Source of the DNA: Eublepharis macularius
Lineage: Eukaryota > Chordata > Lepidosauria > Squamata > Eublepharidae
Length of the DNA stretch: 64,000 bases
Direction of reading: 5' to 3'
Assembly: GCF_028583425.1 (NCBI RefSeq)
Contig: NC_072801.1
Span: forward strand, 63,441,766 to 63,505,765
In this document: piece by piece, positions 3,815-55,100 of the stretch
How the letters are laid out: each line of letters begins with the position of its first letter
How positions within the stretch are numbered: the first letter of the stretch is position 1
Position numbers and translations under genes: made by a program
The notes under the pieces: generated by a model
The model's input: only the letters and a program-made list of their open reading frames with translations
Databases searched by the model: none
What the model was told of the DNA's origin: nothing

Positions 3815-18606
<14,792 letters not shown>

Positions 18607-30401: not shown

Positions 30402-30502
30402 TGTAAGGCGGGTCCAATAGCACTTTAAAGACCAACTAGATCTCCAGGGTATGAGCTTTCGAGTCAAAGTTGGTCTTTAAGGTGTTGACTGGACCCCACT
30501 CT
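30402..30502. repeat. Left part of the older interspersed repeat hit by the foldback element
   Basis: GGTCCAATAGCACTTTAAAG, ACCAACTAGATCTCCAGGGT and ATGAGCTTTCGAGTCAAA, followed by an inverted TTGGTCTTTAAGGTG, are the words of a common squamate foldback repeat also seen at about 45760-45850, 49150-49250 and 57900-58230. Its other part resumes at 35478 and ends near 35535. Confidence 0.6.
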
Positions 30503-30699
30503 GGGGTGTACTAAAACGAATGACAGGATTGCCCATTGAAAATAATGGGAGAGGCTTGAATGCCCATTGGAAATGGGAACCTGGAATGCCCATTGACTTA
30601 CATGGGCTCCATTGAAACACATTAGAGCAAAAAAAAAGTGCAAAGAAAACGTGGAATGGATTTTGAAGGAAAGTGTCTGGGCTCAGATAGACTGTTCTG

Positions 30700-33600
30700 G
30701 GACTGGATTGACAGGCCTCTGAGTGCAATGACGGCCCCTGGGTGTGGCAGAAAGGGTCTGGGACTGGAATGACAGGCCCATGACTGGAATGACGGCCCCT
30801 GGGAGTGACAGAAGGGCTCTGGGACTGGAATGACAGGCCCATGACTGGAATGACGGCCCCTGGGTGTGACAGAAGGGCTCTGGGACTGGAATGACAGGCC
30901 CCTGACTGGAAAGATGGCCCCTGGGGGTGACAGAAGAGCTCAGGGCCTGGAATGACAGGGCCCTGACTGGAATGATAGCCCCTGGGAGTGACAGAAGGGC
31001 TCTGACTGGAATGACAGGGCCCTGACTGGAATGACGGCCCTTGGATGTGACAGAAGGGCTCTGGGACTGGAATGACAGGGCCTGACTGGAATGACGGCCC
31101 CTGGGTGTGACAGAAGGGCTCTGGGACTGGAATGACAGGCCCCTAACTGGAAAGATGGCCCGTGGGGGTGACAGAAGGGCTCGGAGACTGGAATCACAGG
31201 CGCTTGGGTGTGACAGAAGGGCTCTGGGACTGGAATGATAGGGCCCTGACTGGAATGACGGCCCCTGGGTGTGACAGAAGGGCTCTGGGACTGGAATGAC
31301 AGGCCCCTGACTGGAAAGATGGCCCCTGGGGGTGACAGAAGGGCTCGGAGACTGTAATCAAAGGCGCTTGGGTGTGACAGAAGGGCTCTGAGACTGGAAT
31401 GACAGGCCCATGACTGGAAAGATGGCCCCTGGGGGTGACAGAAGGGCTCGGAGACTGGAATGACAGGCCCTTGGGTGTGACAGAAGGGCTCTGGGACTGG
31501 AATGACAGGCCCATGACTGGAAAGATGGCCCCTGGGGGTGACAGAAGAGCTCAGGGACTGGAATGACAGGGCCCCGACTAGAATGATAGCCCCTGGGAGT
31601 GACAGAAGGGCTCTGGGACTGGAATGACAGGGCCCTGACTGGAATGACGGCCCCTGGGTGTGACAGAAGAGCTCTGGGACTGGAATGACAGGCCCATGAC
31701 TGGAAAGATGGCCCCTGGGGGTGACAGAAGGGCTCGGAGACTGGAATCACAGGCGCTTGGGTGTGACAGAAGGGCTCTGGGACTGGAATGATAGGGCCCT
31801 GACTGGAATGACGGCCCCTGGGTGTGACAGAAGGGCTCTGGGACTGGAATGACAGGCCCGACTGGAAAGATGGCCCCTGGGGGTGACAGAAGGGCTCGGA
31901 GACTGGAATCACAGGCGCTTGGGTGTGACAGAAGGGCTCTGAGACTGGAATGACAGGCCCTTGACTGGAAAGATGGCCCCTGGGGGTGACAGAAGGGCTC
32001 GGAGACTGGAATGACAGGCCCTTGGGTGTGACAGAAGGGCTCTGGGACTGGAATGACAGGCCCATGACTGGAAAGATGGCCCCTGGGGGTGACAGAAGAG
32101 CTCAGGGACTGGAATGACAGGGCCCCGACTAGAATGATAGCCCCTGGGAGTGACAGAAGGGCTCTGGGACTGGAATGACAGGGCCCTGACTGGAATGACG
32201 GCCCCTGGGTGTGACAGAAGAGCTCTGGGACTGGAATGACAGGCCCATGACTGGAAAGATGGCCCCTGGGGGTGACAGAAGGGCTCGGAGACTGGAATCA
32301 CAGGCGCTTGGGTGTGACAGAAGGGCTCTGGGACTGGAATGATAGGGCCCTGACTGGAATGACGGCCCCTGGGTGTGACAGAAGGGCTCTGGGACTGGAA
32401 TGACAGGCCCGACTGGAAAGATGGCCCCTGGGGGTGACAGAAGGGCTCGGAGACTGGAATCACAGGCGCTTGGGTGTGACAGAAGGGCTCTGAGACTGGA
32501 ATGACAGGCCCTTGACTGGAAAGATGGCCCCTGGGGGTGACAGAAGGGCTCGGAGACTGGAATGACAGGCCCTTGGGTGTGACAGAAGGGCTCTGGGACT
32601 GGAATGACAGGCCCATGACTGGAAAGATGGCCCCTGGGGGTGACAGAAGAGCTCAGGGACTGGAATGACAGAGCCCTGACTAGAATGATAGCCCCTGGGA
32701 GTGACAGAAGGGCTCTGAGACTGGAATGACAGGGCCCTGACTGGAATGACGGCCCTTGGACGTGACAGAAGGGCTCTGGGACTGGAATGACAGGGCCCTG
32801 ACTGGAATGACGGCCCCTGGGTGTGACAGAAGGGCTCTGGGACTGGAATGACAGGCCCATGACTGGAAAGATGGCCCCTGGGGGTGACAGAAGGGCTCGG
32901 ACACTGGAATCACAGGCGCTTGGGTGTGACAGAAGGGCTCTGGGACTGGAATGACAGGCCCCTGACTGGAAAGATGGCCCCTGGGGGTGACAGAAGAGCT
33001 CAGGGACTGGAATGACAGGGCCCTGACTGGAATGATAGCCCCTGGGAGTGACAGAAGGGCTCTGGGACTGGAATGACAGGGCCCTGACTGGAATGACGGC
33101 CCTTGGATGTGACAGAAGGGCTCTGGGACTGGAATGACAGGGCCCTGACTGGAATGACGGCCCCTGGGTGTGACAGAAGGGCTCTGGGACTGGAATGACA
33201 GGGCCCTGACTGGAATGACGGCCCCTGGGTGTGACAGAAGGGCTCTGGGACTGGAATGACAGGCCCCTGACTGGAAAGATGGCCCCTGGGGGTGACAGAA
33301 GAGCTCAGGGACTGGAATGACAGGGCCCTGACTGGAATGACGGTGCTTGGGTGTGACAGAAGGGCTTGGAGACTGGAATGACAGGCCCTTGGGTGTGACA
33401 GAAGGGCTCTGGGACTGGAATGACAGGCCCATGACTGGAAAGATGGCCCCTGGGGGTGACAGAAGGGCTCTGGGACTGGAATGACAGGCCCCTGACTGGA
33501 ATGACAGCCCCTGGGAGTGACAGAAGGGCTCTGGGACTGGAATGACAGGCCCCTGACTGGAATGACGGCCCTTGGACGTGACAGAAGGGCTCTGGGACTG

Positions 33601-34500
33601 GAATGACAGGGCCCTGACTGGAATGACGGCCCCTGGGTGTGACAGAAGGGCTCTGGGACTGGAATGACAGGCCCATGACTGGAAAGATGGCCCCTGGGGG
33701 TGACAGAAGGGCTCGGACACTGGAATCACAGGCGCTTGGGTGTGACAGAAGGGCTCTGGGACTGGAATGACAGGCCCCTGACTGGAAAGATGGCCCCTGG
33801 GGGTGACAGAAGAGCTCAGGGACTGGAATGACAGGGCCCTGACTGGAATGATAGCCCCTGGGAGTGACAGAAGGGCTCTGGGACTGGAATGACAGGGCCC
33901 TGACTGGAATGACGGCCCTTGGATGTGACAGAAGGGCTCTGGGACTGGAATGACAGGGCCCTGACTGGAATGACGGCCCCTGGGTGTGACAGAAGGGCTC
34001 TGGGACTGGAATGACAGGGCCCTGACTGGAATGACGGCCCCTGGGTGTGACAGAAGGGCTCTGGGACTGGAATGACAGGCCCCTGACTGGAAAGATGGCC
34101 CCTGGGGGTGACAGAAGAGCTCAGGGACTGGAATGACAGGGCCCTGACTGGAATGACGGTGCTTGGGTGTGACAGAAGGGCTTGGAGACTGGAATGACAG
34201 GCCCTTGGGTGTGACAGAAGGGCTCTGGGACTGGAATGACAGGCCCATGACTGGAAAGATGGCCCCTGGGGGTGACAGAAGGGCTCTGGGACTGGAATGA
34301 CAGGCCCCTGACTGGAATGACAGCCCCTGGGAGTGACAGAAGGGCTCTGGGACTGGAATGACAGGCCCCTGACTGGAATGACGGCCTCTGGGTGTGCCAG
34401 AAGGGGCCTGGGACTGGAATGACAGGCCCCTGACTGGAATGAGGGCCCTTGGTGTGACAGAAGGGCTCTGGGACTGGAATGACAAGCCCCACGCTGGAAT
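30700..34500. repeat. Minisatellite, unit about 61 bp, large arm
   Basis: About sixty tandem units built from two half-units of about 30 bp, typified by GACAGAAGGGCTCTGGGACT, then GGAATGACAGGCCC, then TGACTGGAATGACGGCCCCT and GGGTG. Variants shorten or lengthen units, so the register drifts. Higher-order copies are visible: a block repeats at a 551-bp offset (for example the GCCCCGACTA variant at 31571 and 32122) and another at 816 bp (CGGTGCTTGG at 33341 and 34157). Minus-strand frames stay open for hundreds of codons only because the unit lacks stops; there is no support for a protein. Confidence 0.95.
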
Positions 34501-34724
34501 GGCTCTGGGAACAGAAGAACAGACAGAAGAACACTTCCCCATCTGGCAGCAGCCGAATCTTGGCCATTTTGGCCCGATCAAGGGGTGTGGCATATGTTAA
34601 TGAGTTATGCTAATGAGTTCCTGCAGTTCTTTTTCTACAAATGGTTCCCTGACAATACTATAAGGCTAACATATTCATGTTTAAAGACACAGCATTAGTA
34701 AGGATCCAAGACATAGTGTCACAC

Positions 34725-35270
34725 CAGGGGCCATCATTCCAATCAGGGGCCTGTCATTCCAGTCCCTGAGCCCTTCTGTCACACCCAGGGACCGTCATTC
34801 CAGTCCCCCAGCCCTTCTGTCACACTCAGGGGCCATCATTCCAGTCAGGGGCCTGTCATTCCAGTCCCTGAGTCCTTCTGATATACCCAGGGACTGTCAT
34901 TCCAGTCAGGGCCTTGTAAACCCAGTCCCAGAGCCGTTCTGTCACACCCAGGGCCTGTCATTCCAGTCCCAGATCCCTTCTGTCACACCCAGGGGCCGTC
35001 ATTCCCGTCTCAGACCCCTTCTGTCACATCCAGGGACCGTCATTCCAGCGTGGGGCCTGTCATTCCAGCGTGGGGCCCGTCATTCCAGTCCCAGACCCCT
35101 TCTGTCACTCCCAGGGGCCATCATTCCAGTTAGGGGTCTGCCATTCCAGTCCCAGACCCCTTCTGGCACACCCAGGGGCCGTCATTCCAGCGTGGGGCCT
35201 GTCTTTCCAGTCCTAGACCCCTTCTGTCACACCCAGGGGCCATTCATGCACTCAGGCGCCTGTCAATCCA
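34725..35270. repeat. Minisatellite, inverted small arm
   Basis: The same unit in reverse orientation (CTGTCACACCCAGGGGCCGT, CATTCCAGTC), about nine more diverged units. Variants such as CATTCCAGCGTGGGG are seen once near the edge of the large arm (CACGCTGGAATGG at about 34489-34501) and several times here. Confidence 0.9.
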
Positions 35271-36063
35271 GTCCTAGAACAGTCTATCTGGGCCCAGACA
35301 CTTTCCTTCAAAATCCATTCCATGTTTTCTTCGCATTTTTTTTCTTTGCTCTAATGTGTTTCTATGTAGCCCATGCAGGTCAATGAGCATTCCAAGTTCC
35401 CATTATTTCCAATCTGCATTCAAGCCTCTCCTATTTTTTTCAATGGGCAATCCTGTCATTCGTTTTAGTACATTCCCCCCACTCTTGCTCTTCTGCTGCA
35501 GACCCAACACGCTACCCACTTGAAACATTTAACAGTGTTTTAATTTACGTAATTGTCTCATATCTTTTTTTAACTGAAAGGCAGGCTGTAAATATTCTAA
35601 ATGAATAAATTATTTTAAAAAGTCAATCCTTTTGAAAAAGCTGACTAAACAAGATTAAACTTCTTTAAAAGGAGCACATTCCCAGTTAAGTAAAGCGGCC
35701 TCCCTTCTCAACTTAAACGATGTTACCTAAATTTGATTGATGTTTTACTGGGCTTGTGGAGGTGAAGCCTGATTGGTTTGGCTCAAGAGAAAGTGCACTT
35801 TGCAGTCTGGATTCTATGAGGAAAGGGAAGTGCTCGGTTTGCCTGGGAATTATTGTAACATCAGACAGGATGGCTGAATACTTTGATATGGTTTTAGGAA
35901 CTAGATGAGGAAAGCTAATGGACCAGAGAATGCCAATTCAGAAATAGAAACAGAAATCTGGGAGATGTACAATGGGGAGTTGAGGTAAGGAGTGCTTAAA
36001 TTGAAATTGGGTTTTGAAAAAGAAATGGTTAAATAGAAAGTGAGTTCTGTAAAAGATTAGGTT

Positions 36064-42519: not shown

Positions 42520-43905
42520 TTACAGAGGATTCTTTTCAAAATAAGAGCAATAAGCAGCCCTTATCTGGCACGCTTTCTTAGTTAGTCCAGCCTCTGATAA
42601 TGGCACCCTTGGCCTGGCTGAGGCATTCTGGTTTTCAACTGCTGGAGGACTTTCCAATGGCTCCAGCAACTCATCACCTTTGATTTCACATATATTGTGT
42701 AGTATGCAGCAGGTAGCTATGACTACAGGAATGAGCTTCTCCCTCACATCTAGTCTCATTTGCAAGCATCTCCAGCGAGCTCTGAGGACTCCAAATGCTC
42801 TCTCCACACATACTCTGCATTTAGCTAGTCTCTCATTGAATTGCTCTTGTGCCGTAGTTTTGGGAGTGGGGTATGGCTTCATCAGCCAGGGACGAAGTGG
42901 GTAGGCAGCATCCCCAATTATGACAGGGGTCATTGAAACACCTTCCAAAACTGTTGTAGTTTGTGGCCCAAAGGTGCCATCATCCATACTGTTGAAAAAA
43001 GGTGAGTTGTGTAGGATGCGGGAGTCATGGGATCGTTCAGGAAAACCAACATAGATATCAGTGAAACGGGATTTACTGTCCACCAGTGCCTGCAGCACCA
43101 TTGAGTAGAAGCCCTTACAATTAATGTAGGAATCAGCAGAAAACGGGGGACACAGGATGGAAATGTGCACTGCATCAATAGCGCCAAGGCAGTTGGGGAA
43201 GCCCATCTCCTTGAAACCTTCCATGATTTTCTGAGGATCTCCCAGCTCAATTGTTTGGGCAAGGAGCCTGCTGTTTATTTCCTCGCATACCTCTTCAAAT
43301 ATCGAGCAAGCAGACGAAATCCCAACACCAAAGAGTTCAGAAACAGTCTTATAACTATCATGGTGAGCTAGCTTCCAGATGGTCATTGCAACTCTTTTTT
43401 CAACGGGGATGTGGGACCTCATTCCAGTGTCTCGCCGCTGCAGAGCAGGGCGCAACTCCTCTGCAATATACATAAGAGTGGAGCGTGACATCCTGAACAA
43501 AGAAATCCAACACTTGTCATCCTGCTCTGAAGAGATCATCCGCTCCCACCACTCACTGCATCTTGGAAGCATCCAGTGAGACCGCTCAGACAAGGCCATC
43601 AGTTCATGCTCATAGTGGAGAGCAGGAGAAGACGAATACACCATGGTGACCACTGAGACAATAGCATTTCGATGAAGCCGCAGCAAGGCTCTCTTGCGGC
43701 GGACGCTAGCAGAGAGGATACGCCTCAGCACTGCAGCAGATCTGCGGAAGCGCCTCCGCTGCAGAATCCTAGCTATGGCAAAAATCACAGTGCGCCTGTT
43801 GAGCATCCATTGCTGCACTAGCAACTGGGAGGTTTGAATGCAGGCAGCAACAAGAGCCAAGCACTCCTGCTCCATTCTTTTTTTCCAGGTGCTTCTGAAG
43901 TTCAC
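42520..43905 (-). CDS. PIF/Harbinger-type transposase or HARBI1-like nuclease, uninterrupted 461-residue frame
   Basis: One open frame with a DDE_Tnp_4-type nuclease domain. The catalytic triad appears complete: Asp244 in CLGAIDAVHIS, Asp294 in GFPERSHDSRIL and Glu369 in VERAFGVLRARWRCLQ, with GDAAYPL at 331-337. A helical region at about 166-215 (IPVEKRVAMTIWKLAHHDS, then TVSELFGVGISSACSIFEEV) is the HTH-like part of these proteins. The first 110 residues are basic and Arg-rich (RILQRRRFRRSAAVLRRIL) and make it longer than human HARBI1 (349). An AATAAA lies about 85 nt past the stop (42437-42432). No partner MYB/SANT-like frame is visible nearby, and I could not find terminal inverted repeats with a TTA/TAA-type duplication. 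It lies in the inferred first intron of TMEM219, same strand. It may be a young transposon copy or a domesticated gene. Confidence 0.85.
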   Translation of the reverse strand: MNFRSTWKKRMEQECLALVAACIQTSQLLVQQWMLNRRTVIFAIARILQRRRFRRSAAVLRRILSASVRRKRALLRLHRNAIVSVVTMVYSSSPALHYEHELMALSERSHWMLPRCSEWWERMISSEQDDKCWISLFRMSRSTLMYIAEELRPALQRRDTGMRSHIPVEKRVAMTIWKLAHHDSYKTVSELFGVGISSACSIFEEVCEEINSRLLAQTIELGDPQKIMEGFKEMGFPNCLGAIDAVHISILCPPFSADSYINCKGFYSMVLQALVDSKSRFTDIYVGFPERSHDSRILHNSPFFNSMDDGTFGPQTTTVLEGVSMTPVIIGDAAYPLRPWLMKPYPTPKTTAQEQFNERLAKCRVCVERAFGVLRARWRCLQMRLDVREKLIPVVIATCCILHNICEIKGDELLEPLESPPAVENQNASARPRVPLSEAGLTKKACQIRAAYCSYFEKNPL

Positions 43906-44439
43906 TGCAGGCTCAGGAGGAAGTGATGTCAGCGTGCTGCGAGAGGAAATCCTTCCCCTGCTACACCACTGGCCAAGGCAGGGATAACATCACCAGGCAG
44001 GGCTGACTAGTCCTTGCACTTCCGGCTGGAAAAGCACTGTTGAACTGAAGGGCAATAAATTGTAATTGGGTTTTTGCTCACTAACTGAAACATGTTTACA
44101 TTTCAATGGTGAAGAGCTTTTTTCTTTTTTTCATTGAGCTGAGGGGGATGGGGTTGTACCATACTCAAGAAAACACCCAGCCACTTCAAAATCCTTAAGC
44201 ATTCAAGGGGTTATCTGTGACTCTATCCAGTCACTTCATCTCAGCTTCTTTCTCGTATCCCGAAATCCTACATGCCGACTGTCCAATCACACACCTTTAC
44301 TGCTCCCTTATTATTTGCCTGGCATCAGACCACACCCTTCTTCTCTCACCTGGCCTCCACCTTCTCAAGCTAGCATCTGTTAAAGTTCCACACAGCCTGG
44401 CACCTGGTATTTAAATTCCAAAGCTTGTTCTACACACGT

Positions 44440-52102: not shown

Positions 52103-55100
52103 TTAACCCTTCCCATCCAAGGTGTCCGTATAGACCGTCACTTTGCTAGGAGCTGTACAGAGGAAAAAAGAATAAAAAGTGAGAATGCAGAGGAACAGAG
52201 AGCTGGGAGCTAGGTAGCACACGTTCCAGTGCTTATTCTCACCCCTCCACCACCACGCCTATACTGTACTAGACAGCTGCTGTAGCACAGTGGTTGGGAT
52301 GCAAATAAGCACTCTGCTGGTTTGAATCCCATTACTGTCATGAGCTCAGTAGGTGGCTGGGGTAAGCCACTCCTTTCAGCCCCAGCTGTATTGTGGGGAT
52401 AACAACACTGAGTGGGTCACTAATCTGTCTAGAAGAGTGGTATATAAGCACAGTTACTGGTGTTGTTATAATAAAATGGGCAAACAACTCCCATGTTGCC
52501 TCCCTGGACACAGTTCTCCCATGGCTTGGCTGAATTAACTTAGAGCAGCCTCATCCTCTTCATTTCCCCACTCCAAAACTATATAGTTGTACTAGTAGTT
52601 CCAGGTCTCCTGCTGTACAGTTTCTGCATATTCTCATACTACAGAAAACTGAATAGCCCCTGCCCCTCAATTCCCTCTGAACCCACTATTGCAGAAACCT
52701 CAAGTAGCTCGGACTAATATCTGTACTCTTGGGGTTTTCTCTGCTGTAGGGTTGTTGGGTCAGTGGAAGTATTTTACTAGACAGTCCAGTCCACTGAAAG
52801 CTGATCAGCTAGCATGACCTACCAGTAAAGGATCTACAGTTATGGAGCATATTGTATCCATGTTATGCTGGGGAATTATATACAAAGGCCAAAGGAAAGA
52901 AATAACATTAAATCAGCATATCAAAACTTAAGAAAACTATTTTATTTACAAAAGCAACATGACTTTTTAGAAACACATAGGTAACTAGATGAAATTGCTT
53001 GGTGGATGGATACAATTGGTTATTCTAATTCTAGGACTCCCGCGAACAGCTCTCCAAGTTCACTGAACTGGACCCCCTGCAAATCCTAAGACCTCCTTAA
53101 CTGAAACTATAGGGGCCATAATTCAAGAGGGTACATGTACAAGTCACAGGTTCAATTTCCAACACCTCCAGTTAAGATTTAATAAACCCGTGTATGACAT
53201 ATCCTAACCCCCTAAACAGAGTTTGAAATCTGCAGTTAACTGGGAGAGTAATCACATTTGATTTGAGATTCCTTACCTTGACTGTGTAGCTCCCATATAT
53301 GAGTCCATTCTGTATTAGGAAGAGAGAGGAATGAGGGAAATTAGAAGGCAAGCATTGATGCCAAAGTAAGCCCCAGAACCCACCCCATCCAATCCCACAC
53401 CTAGTTTAGGCAGCTCACTCCATAGAAGTCCCTAAATTCCAACGGCTCTCAGACTTGGGATTCAGATTCTAATTCCTGTGCACCCCAAGAGAGGAAAAAA
53501 TTCTTTCAAATGCTTTCACTGAACCTGCCTAATAGTGGGTGTGGGGAATTTGTGCTGTCAGCAGAAAAAAGGGAAACTATAGAATTTGACACCCATTTCA
53601 TCCAGTCCAGGAGTAGTATATTAGCTGCACATGATGAAGAATCAGCTGCAAACCCCAAAAAGCTGACACTTCAGTCTTGCTAGTTTCTAGGCATCCCCAG
53701 GCTTTTTCACATATCAAGCAATGAAAAGTTGAGGAATGCAAAGGGTGAAATACTTAGCACTCATCCTTTAACTCCCTACAAGTCCTTACACATAGCCAGA
53801 ACTATCCTAGGTGTCATCTCTTCCATTCATTGTAACAAGCACTATTCTAACCCCTGGAATATTCCTGCCACTCCCATCTCACACAATTCCATACTACTCT
53901 TCCCCCCAAAATTTCCACATTCCATTCACTCTCTACTCCTGCCCTCAAATTTATATATCCATTCTTCCCCCTCCTAGATTGCAACATCAATATCTTTCCT
54001 CCAGCTTACCTTCCAGGTGATAATTTCTTGCAGCCTGCCAGTCATTTGCTTCCATTTTCTCCCAGCATGCTCCAGTATCTGCATCTTCCACATCTTTTTC
54101 TGGTGCTGTCCCACCACCCCCTCCATGGCCAGCTCCTGGCTCATTGATAAAGGATAAGCCCCACTCATTCTGAAAAATAGCTCCCAGGTGCTGTTGCCGA
54201 CTACTGTCGGATGGTGGGGGGCTGCTTGGGGGAGGCGCCAGGACACAGTTGGGGAGGCTATTGGTGGTGCGGACAGCTGAGGCGGGAACATGGCAGGCTT
54301 TCCCAGGTTGATCCAAGTTCTCTTTCAGCTTGCTAGCATAAGAGATCTTAGGAATGATCCGGGCGCTGCTGCTATCGACTGGGAAAGCAGGAAGGGGCCG
54401 GAAAAGGGACCATGTTTCCTTCCCGGAATCCTCAACGGCTGCATTGGTGGCATTTGATGTAACGGCTGGCTTCTCACCAACTTTGACGGTGCTATCTCGT
54501 TCTGATTCCGGAGAGGATGATGGAGAGGGTGGGTCAGAATAGCCACGGCGCCGGTGTTGCCATCGCCCATTAGAAATGCCTTCAGGAGCACAGTGGTGGC
54601 CATTGGTGCTGGGCCCCCATTCCTTGCGCTCAGAGGGGCTGCCTCGGTATGTTTTGCGGTAGGCAGAAGTATGGAAGGGCCGCCCGTGGTAGAAGCGATG
54701 GGGATAACGGTGGACGTGGTGGGTGGTTGGAGGATCCCGCTCAGACAACTGAAGGTTACGGATGTTAAGGCTGTTAGAAGGGCTCAAGGGAACACTGGGC
54801 TCATCAGCAATCTCTGAGGATGCAGTATAGCCATTGGACTCCCAGGAACCTAGAGAGGAACGATTGTGATGTGAACTCAATGTCTGTATTGATGGCGGAT
54901 ATAAAGCATGGTTGGTTGTTGCTCCCCAATACATTATAAAAGGTTTCCCTCCTCCCTTTTGAAATTTATACTGTAAACCCACAAGGCTGGGATCTGGCAC
55001 TTAAAGGACAGCTTGTGTTAGTTTGTACATGTATAGCATGATTTTGGTGCATAATTTATCATCATCATATTTGATCCTTCCTGTAATAACAACAAAACAA

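Follow-up and report, generated by a model that had tools for sequence, protein, structure and literature searches.

A dispersed foldback family with minisatellite arms in Eublepharis macularius, most probably of the Mutator superfamily, whose ends also bound units of up to 108 kb

A 64,000-nucleotide stretch of the Eublepharis macularius genome (contig NC_072801.1, positions 63,441,766 to 63,505,765; hereafter the window) contains an element whose two arms mirror each other and carry the same minisatellite in opposite orientation. Did such a structure arise in place or by transposition, what would have moved it, and what has the minisatellite to do with the movement? We conclude, with a probability of roughly 85%, that the window copy is an old, non-autonomous member of a dispersed foldback (FB-type) family of cut-and-paste elements that make 9-bp target duplications and belong most probably to the Mutator (MULE) superfamily. 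Giant units of 24-108 kb elsewhere in the genome have these ends as well.

The element occupies window positions 30503-35476, between 9-bp target duplications at 30494-30502 and 35477-35485 (Table 1). Its ends are inverted copies of each other: the alignment within the window of 30507-30759 with 35472-35215 runs over 258 columns at 89%, and the outer 190 bp of the left and right ends are 91.4% alike, gaps not counted. In each arm a 195-bp outer repeat leads into an array built from a 61-bp unit, in plus orientation on the left (~30696-34501) and minus on the right (~34717-35278); a spacer of about 215 bp separates the two arrays. In the left arm, Tandem Repeats Finder reported periods of 61, 103, 164, 286 and 347 bp. 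The commonest form of the tip in the family is GGGATGTACTAAAACG..., versus GGGGTGTACTAAAACGAATGACAGG in the window. The preliminary description of this stretch was right about the inverted ends of some 250 bp and about the mirrored minisatellite. It had also given an exact flanking duplication of 8 bp and an element end at 35477. The flanks do match perfectly, but the 9-mer CCCCACTCT occurs at 30494 and 35477 and nowhere else in the window, and the duplication is therefore 9 bp long; the 8-mer reported earlier, CCCACTCT (at 30495 and 35478 only, in the whole window), is its last eight bases. Position 35477 thus falls one base inside the right duplication, the true end being 35476.

We searched the genome (2.24 Gb, 72 contigs) with the ends of the element. 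The first 158 bp gave 1699 candidates, and the 40 that were scored all match, 39 at 93-96% in addition to the element itself, mostly spanning base 1 to 158. The exact end 24-mer GGGATGTACTAAAACGAATGACAG occurs 302 times (163 forward, 139 reverse; positions given for the first 100), and its backwards-read control does not occur. From twenty extracted 10-kb loci a two-ended copy could be delimited in 17, ranging from 0.4 kb (the smallest, L019) to 5.4 kb; L016, L017 and L025 have one end only. With the window included, 16 of 18 two-ended copies carry the mirrored minisatellite in both arms (15 of 17 without it), and in L011 and L019 it is present in a single arm. The array begins 194-202 bp from the tip in those 16 copies, with the exception of the right arm of L018 (113 bp), and its length per arm varies from ~90 bp to 3.8 kb. 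Recurrence of the ends at hundreds of places and differing array lengths were both anticipated by the preliminary description. Nine of the copies (L010, L013, L014, L015, L018, L020, L022, L024, L027) sit at one common insertion site, ACAAGGGG, in another repeat; they multiplied along with that host repeat, and are therefore not independent insertions. The host repeat bearing the short foldback at this fixed site is itself partly palindromic.

The middle domain between the arms is variable. It is nil or almost nil in most short copies and reaches ~1.5 kb in L021 and L028. Three long copies (L021, L023, L028) share a captured repeat fragment interrupted by a ~1.38-kb CAGGG...CCCTG insertion with a duplication of ACAATACC; judging by its ends, we take this insertion to be hAT-like. 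The window retains a relic of the same arrangement, with 34529-34727 resembling L021 at 94.5% and L028 at 87%. The repeat is uninterrupted at L041 4811-4948, where ACAATACC is the 8-bp overlap at which the insertion entered. L030 and L041 were considered as family elements and rejected, the two middle-domain blocks that they share being the uninterrupted captured repeat and not these ends. The middle domain of L023 is lengthened by a further nested insert (5471-7723), in which a GIY-YIG frame (Pfam) lies between 678-bp inverted repeats that are 99.7% alike. This is a recent insertion, presumably of a Penelope-like element by our own reading of the frame, and as a nested insertion it was rejected as the family's transposase.

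Target duplications were assessed at nine independent sites including the window, taking the best flank match with an end shift of at most 2 bases, alongside 72 swapped control pairs. Five of the nine sites have a duplication of at least 9 bp with at most one mismatch (window 9/9, L009 10/10, L012 9/9, L019 10/10, L021 9/10); the best among the swapped pairs were 7/10 (three) and 7/8 (one). When the window flanks are joined, 28 of the 38 non-self matches among the first 40 of 64 run through the junction, small indels changing their length by -13 to +15 bp. Six related unoccupied loci were found for L012, and L021 also contains a weaker unoccupied relative of the window site (77%). Since the joined flanks match repeats across the junction, the target is a dispersed repeat that is unoccupied elsewhere; these sites are other copies of the target repeat within this genome, as distinct from orthologous sites. 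The family thus displays what characterizes foldback-type elements, namely mirrored tandem repeats in long inverted arms, dispersal, target duplications, varying arm length and a variable middle domain. The mobile foldback unit proposed in the preliminary description is borne out by the dispersed ends, the duplications at other sites and the related unoccupied sites.

Among the first 100 of the 302 exact ends there are inward-facing pairs tens of kb apart. The 48.0-kb unit C1:99372250-99420255 has a complete minisatellite-bearing arm at each end; the two arms align as inverted copies across 942 columns at 89%, their outer 190 bp are 98.9% alike, and TTTCTGCGC flanks the unit on either side. 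Twelve pairs of 10-108 kb were checked for duplication: this unit, ten others of 24-108 kb, and the 10.3-kb element C4:182439292-182449618, which has AGCCCAAAG on each side as a perfect 9-bp duplication. The ten pairs gave five perfect 9-mers, one 8/9 match and four perfect 8-mers, whereas the maximum in 90 swapped controls was 5/9. Assigning one C of the terminal right CCC to the duplication extends three of the four 8-mers to 9 bp. The fourth belongs to C2:124.4, which we dropped because its ends are of the short-copy type and located at the shared ACAAGGGG site; it consists of two separate short copies. With this false pair removed, all 11 pairs have a duplication, seven of them a perfect 9-mer. 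Listed outside this test were the pairs at C1:8.47-8.55, C2:212.42, C3:31.89 and C5:21.19 Mb and the mid-size pairs at C3:127.29, C7:49.12, C7:94.27, C8:67.67 and C8:102.91 Mb. One base of the end distinguishes the giants (TTGGAAA versus GAAAA), being found at 20/20 giant ends and 0/36 short-copy ends; the short copies had been selected as those most similar to the window's end, a choice that favours the GAAAA form. A 60-mer that includes the giant-type base has 78 occurrences (44 forward, 34 reverse) against none for its control, and in all 12 cases where such diagnostic ends neighbour each other within 120 kb they point towards each other, 4.6 to 108 kb apart.

What the giants contain also recurs. 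The 40 scored matches to a first interior piece, 2 kb of the 48-kb unit, are all at 98-100%, many of them within other giants, and the piece forms seven inverted pairs spanning 25-38 kb. A second piece, adjoining the right arm, matched its 40 scored places at 91-100%, and a third, from a 40-kb unit, its 40 at 93-100%. At 57 of these 120 places an exact giant-type end lies in the correct orientation within 50 kb, against a chance expectation of 0.17%, or ~0.2 in 120; several places may share one giant, so the 57 are not independent cases. The 120 places group into 72 clusters, 29 of which have two or three kinds of piece, and at least 7 of 10 tested giants hold at least one interior piece. Because the three pieces recur in other giants, we reject the reading of the interiors as random host DNA. 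The same ends thus bound giants, most of them with a common, recently amplified interior, and the family's ends therefore mobilise DNA of very large size.

The interiors were read in six 1.2-kb samples and two 8-kb ends, about 20 kb in all. These contain a reverse-transcriptase frame (L043), a retroviral protease frame (L065) and satellites; two further frames we take by eye to be LINE-like (L064, for which Pfam found nothing) and env-like (L066). No transposase was seen in this 20 kb. Nor were viral capsid or polymerase genes of the kind in Maverick or Teratorn noticed there, no search dedicated to them having been made; the targets of those elements, 6 bp or TTAA, do not fit either. We rejected a DNA virus as the identity of the giants, since LINE-like, retrovirus-like and satellite stretches were all that was noticed in the 20 kb read. 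From the sequence comparisons, most giants are members of one recently amplified family carrying nested debris. We consider it likely that dozens of such giants (24-108 kb) make up a young foldback family: a large genomic segment, laden with retroelements, would have been captured by minisatellite-armed ends and then transposed again and again. The family would be the self-amplified vertebrate equivalent of the giant Ising that FB elements flank in Drosophila, and the small foldbacks, the window copy included, would be its miniature relatives.

Two features of the giants may be recorded here. A perfect 66-bp GC-rich satellite of 7.3 copies and 1.3 kb of TGTCTT/CGGGCA hexamer arrays lie next to the left arm in the 48-kb giant (L042 1572-3398). 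The giants at C1:57.7 and C1:99.4 have a second large inverted repeat inside them, spanning 25-31 kb, a foldback within a foldback; that of C1:57.7 is at least 4 kb long at 96-99%.

The arrays themselves bear a relation to the tip. The 61-bp unit has a 10-bp core, GAATGACAGG, that is identical to element bases 16-25; when the first 40 bases of L012 were shuffled base by base, an equally long match arose in 7 of 5000 trials. The window element has 54 copies of the core, which is in plus orientation in the left array. Across the 16 two-array copies, the left arms hold 102 cores, all plus, and the right arms 79, all minus, so that 181 are oriented like the near tip and none is opposed; four further copies lie in the middle domains. 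The core copies a subterminal motif of the element itself, located 15 bp inward of the tip, and is oriented as the tip is. Galileo has additional transposase-binding sites within the tandem repeats of its long terminal inverted repeats (TIRs) (PMC3688188). The shared motif and orientation, together with that precedent, suggest that the arrays are putative transposase-binding sites grown from the tip. In the model that we infer for the transposase, for the binding role of the arrays and for their mode of expansion, a transposase provided in trans would bind the tip and the tip-like array sites in both arms, pair the ends, excise the element and insert it at a 9-bp stagger. The arrays would grow or shrink via unequal exchange or gap repair, and the multiplied putative binding sites may enable the pairing of distant ends.

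Which superfamily is involved? The target duplication of about 9 bp is that expected of Mutator, and this length together with a MULE fragment in one copy points towards Mutator. The fragment is an internal 182-bp stretch (62 aa) of the 10.3-kb C4:182.44 element, with 93% DNA identity to the MULE gene of L040; its support for Mutator membership is suggestive. At L040 (C9:105.21 Mb) a 577-aa MULE frame precedes one for an Ulp1 protease; 36 stretches of the genome match its MULE protein, and there is no foldback end in its 3.3 kb of sequence. C-terminal fragments of L040 were also noted less than 1 Mb from the contig ends of C4, C7, C8 and C16. The MULE loci were examined as a possible autonomous copy and rejected, 11 of the 12 fetched belonging to a different family of ~1.8-2.6 kb with GGAAAAAAGCCCACA-repeat ends. 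That decayed family (L029-L039), with inverted ends of tandem GGAAAAAAGCCCACA repeats, is a second foldback-like MULE family in this genome.

Several observations weigh against these readings. First, the flank matches at four of the nine independent sites are lower (L023 7/8, L026 7/9, L028 6/8, L011 5/8), and the duplications there are weak, degraded, unclear or absent; the duplications expected in the preliminary description were obtained at five sites, with the length amended from 8 to 9 bp. Second, the nine fetched copies at the ACAAGGGG site are co-amplified with another repeat. Third, no complete transposase was found between family ends; MULE matches number 17 in the genome, and the 12 loci fetched from among them all lack foldback ends within 1.5 kb, none of the 17 Pfam MULE matches has an exact giant-type end within 110 kb, and of the 36 stretches matching the L040 protein only that in C4:182.44 does. 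The alignment of the 62-aa stretch there breaks off abruptly at either side, and the stretch may have been captured. Fourth, 63 of the 120 interior places have no exact giant-type end nearby, either because the ends have mutated or because the piece itself is a repeat elsewhere, as with the second piece where it forms a run at C1:4.8-7.2 Mb; and the giants at C2:179.24, C2:211.25 and C2:213.33 Mb are not among the matches listed for the three pieces.

A possible objection is that this same mobile foldback family is moved by a transposase other than MULE, whether of the P superfamily as in Galileo, hAT or one that is undescribed. We regard this as unlikely, although it fares best among the alternatives. 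It accords with there being no intact MULE between the ends, with the foldback plan of Galileo within the P superfamily (PMC3688188), and with the four giant pairs that read as 8-bp duplications. Those 8-bp readings dwindle, as described above, to one false pair and three that gain a ninth base from a right-hand C, and the MULE fragment in C4:182.44 also speaks against it. Perfect 9-mers predominate here, whereas hAT and P elements make 8-bp duplications. The hAT superfamily further has CA...TG-type ends; in this family we found 9-bp duplications and ends of GGGATG...CATCCC, the hAT domain itself not having been searched for. Only two loci match the P-element domain (PF21787), and no exact giant-type end lies within 110 kb of either. 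Merlin gave no genome match to PF12762 (DDE_Tnp_IS1595), with a control that matched in 1 of 14 genomes, and KDZ (Zisupton) none to PF18758, with a control that matched nowhere either. A Mutator transposase supplied in trans remains our preferred reading.

The giants could instead be segmental duplications, or separate small foldbacks that by chance lie 24-108 kb apart, as C2:124.4 proved to be. We think this very improbable for the remaining pairs, since each has duplications that match across the whole unit, within flanks that differ from pair to pair, at a level that the 90 swapped controls did not approach; the subfamily base (subject to the way the short copies were chosen) and the uniform inward orientation argue likewise. 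That the window arms formed in place, by inverted duplication of a local minisatellite and a chance 9-bp match, is already refuted, common as such duplication and minisatellite expansion are in genomes, by the same ends occurring at hundreds of places, by differing target duplications at independent sites and by the unoccupied relatives of the window site.

The preliminary description knew of no family with this plan, and in this it was mistaken, for Drosophila FB, Tetris, Galileo and the nematode Tm1 all have it. Drosophila FB elements have long inverted repeats made of short tandem repeats, arms of variable length and a 9-bp duplication; the family described here shares the tandem-repeat-filled inverted arms, the variation in arm length and the duplication length, a likeness in plan. 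Sea urchin TU elements likewise have foldback ends with tandem repeats, with 8-bp duplications. Galileo shares the foldback-like plan, and its binding sites in TIR repeats are the model applied here to the 61-bp array; it belongs, however, to the P superfamily (PMC3688188). Its duplications are also shorter. Tetris of Drosophila virilis was assigned to Mutator by the length of its duplications, 8-10 bp; it has tandem repeats in each TIR, a variable middle domain without apparent coding capacity and no transposase found, and differs in its 220-bp unit, its three structurally complete copies and the lack of giants in its description (PMC4079207). Tm1 of root-knot nematodes, a Mutator/Foldback family, has duplications of 8-10 bp, mostly 9 bp, in 45 of 53 elements, and shares composite TIRs, variable tandem repeats and non-autonomous and MITE-like (miniature inverted-repeat) members; it differs in having a Phantom-type MULE transposase in a 2.6-kb element and a repeat unit of ~14 bp (PMC3169594).

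For the giants the nearest parallel is the Drosophila giant transposable element (TE) Ising, units of hundreds of kb mobilised between foldback elements (PMC6431247). Ising is a composite mobile segment, whereas the giants here form a multicopy family in a vertebrate, with interiors that recur. Teratorn and the giants of Ectocarpus likewise travel as single units of tens of kb or more, but Teratorn is a piggyBac-herpesvirus fusion. Copies of the Ectocarpus giants share fixed nested TEs, and certain families are taken to be non-autonomous; they differ in being KDZ, EnSpm and Sola elements (PMC12477816). The available accounts of Teratorn and of the Ectocarpus giants describe no foldback minisatellite arms, and the results listed by searches of the open-access literature include no amplified vertebrate foldback family of giant size. 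The plan of the small elements was already known; what appears new, judged by those results, is the giant amplified vertebrate family.

Cut-and-paste transposition is usually regarded as declining steeply with length. In this genome a single type of end delimits units as short as 0.4 kb (L019) and as long as 108 kb, and even the giants have target duplications; this range, those duplications and an interior piece recurring at 98-99% identity mean that the pairing of ends over long distances can be studied in a vertebrate. The identity of array core and tip motif provides a testable case for minisatellites growing as transposase-binding sites, and offers one origin for hypervariable minisatellites. 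The giants offer a route by which large DNA blocks could spread without retrotransposition.

Table 1. Parts of the foldback element and its flanks, in window coordinates
Feature	Position	Strand	Basis
Left target-site duplication, CCCCACTCT	30494..30502	.	exact match to 35477-35485, absent from the rest of the window
Left outer terminal inverted repeat, starting GGGGTGTACTAAAACGAATGACAGG	30503..30697	+	258-column inverted match to the right end, 89%
Left-arm minisatellite, 61-bp unit with higher-order duplications	~30696..34501	+	Tandem Repeats Finder
Middle domain: relic of the CAGGG...CCCTG insertion (~1.38 kb in long copies)	34529..34651	.	matches to L021 and L028
Middle domain: part of the captured genomic repeat (ACAATAC...CATAGT)	34652..34717	.	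uninterrupted copy at L041 4811-4948
Right-arm minisatellite, identical 61-bp unit in opposite orientation	~34717..35278	-	repeat-finding and arm comparison
Right outer terminal inverted repeat	35279..35476	-	inverted match to the left end
Right target-site duplication, CCCCACTCT	35477..35485	.	equals the left copy; joined flanks matched across the junction by genomic repeats

Elsewhere in the window, a 719-aa frame at 3815-5974 (-), for which Pfam found nothing, resembles what we take to be a TAO kinase 3' exon. A 489-aa open frame at 42520-43989 (-) has a DDE_Tnp_4 domain over the full profile (E 4e-30) and encodes a Harbinger/HARBI1-type transposase, and a coding exon of NUFIP2 (Pfam NUFIP2) lies at 53987-55000 (-).

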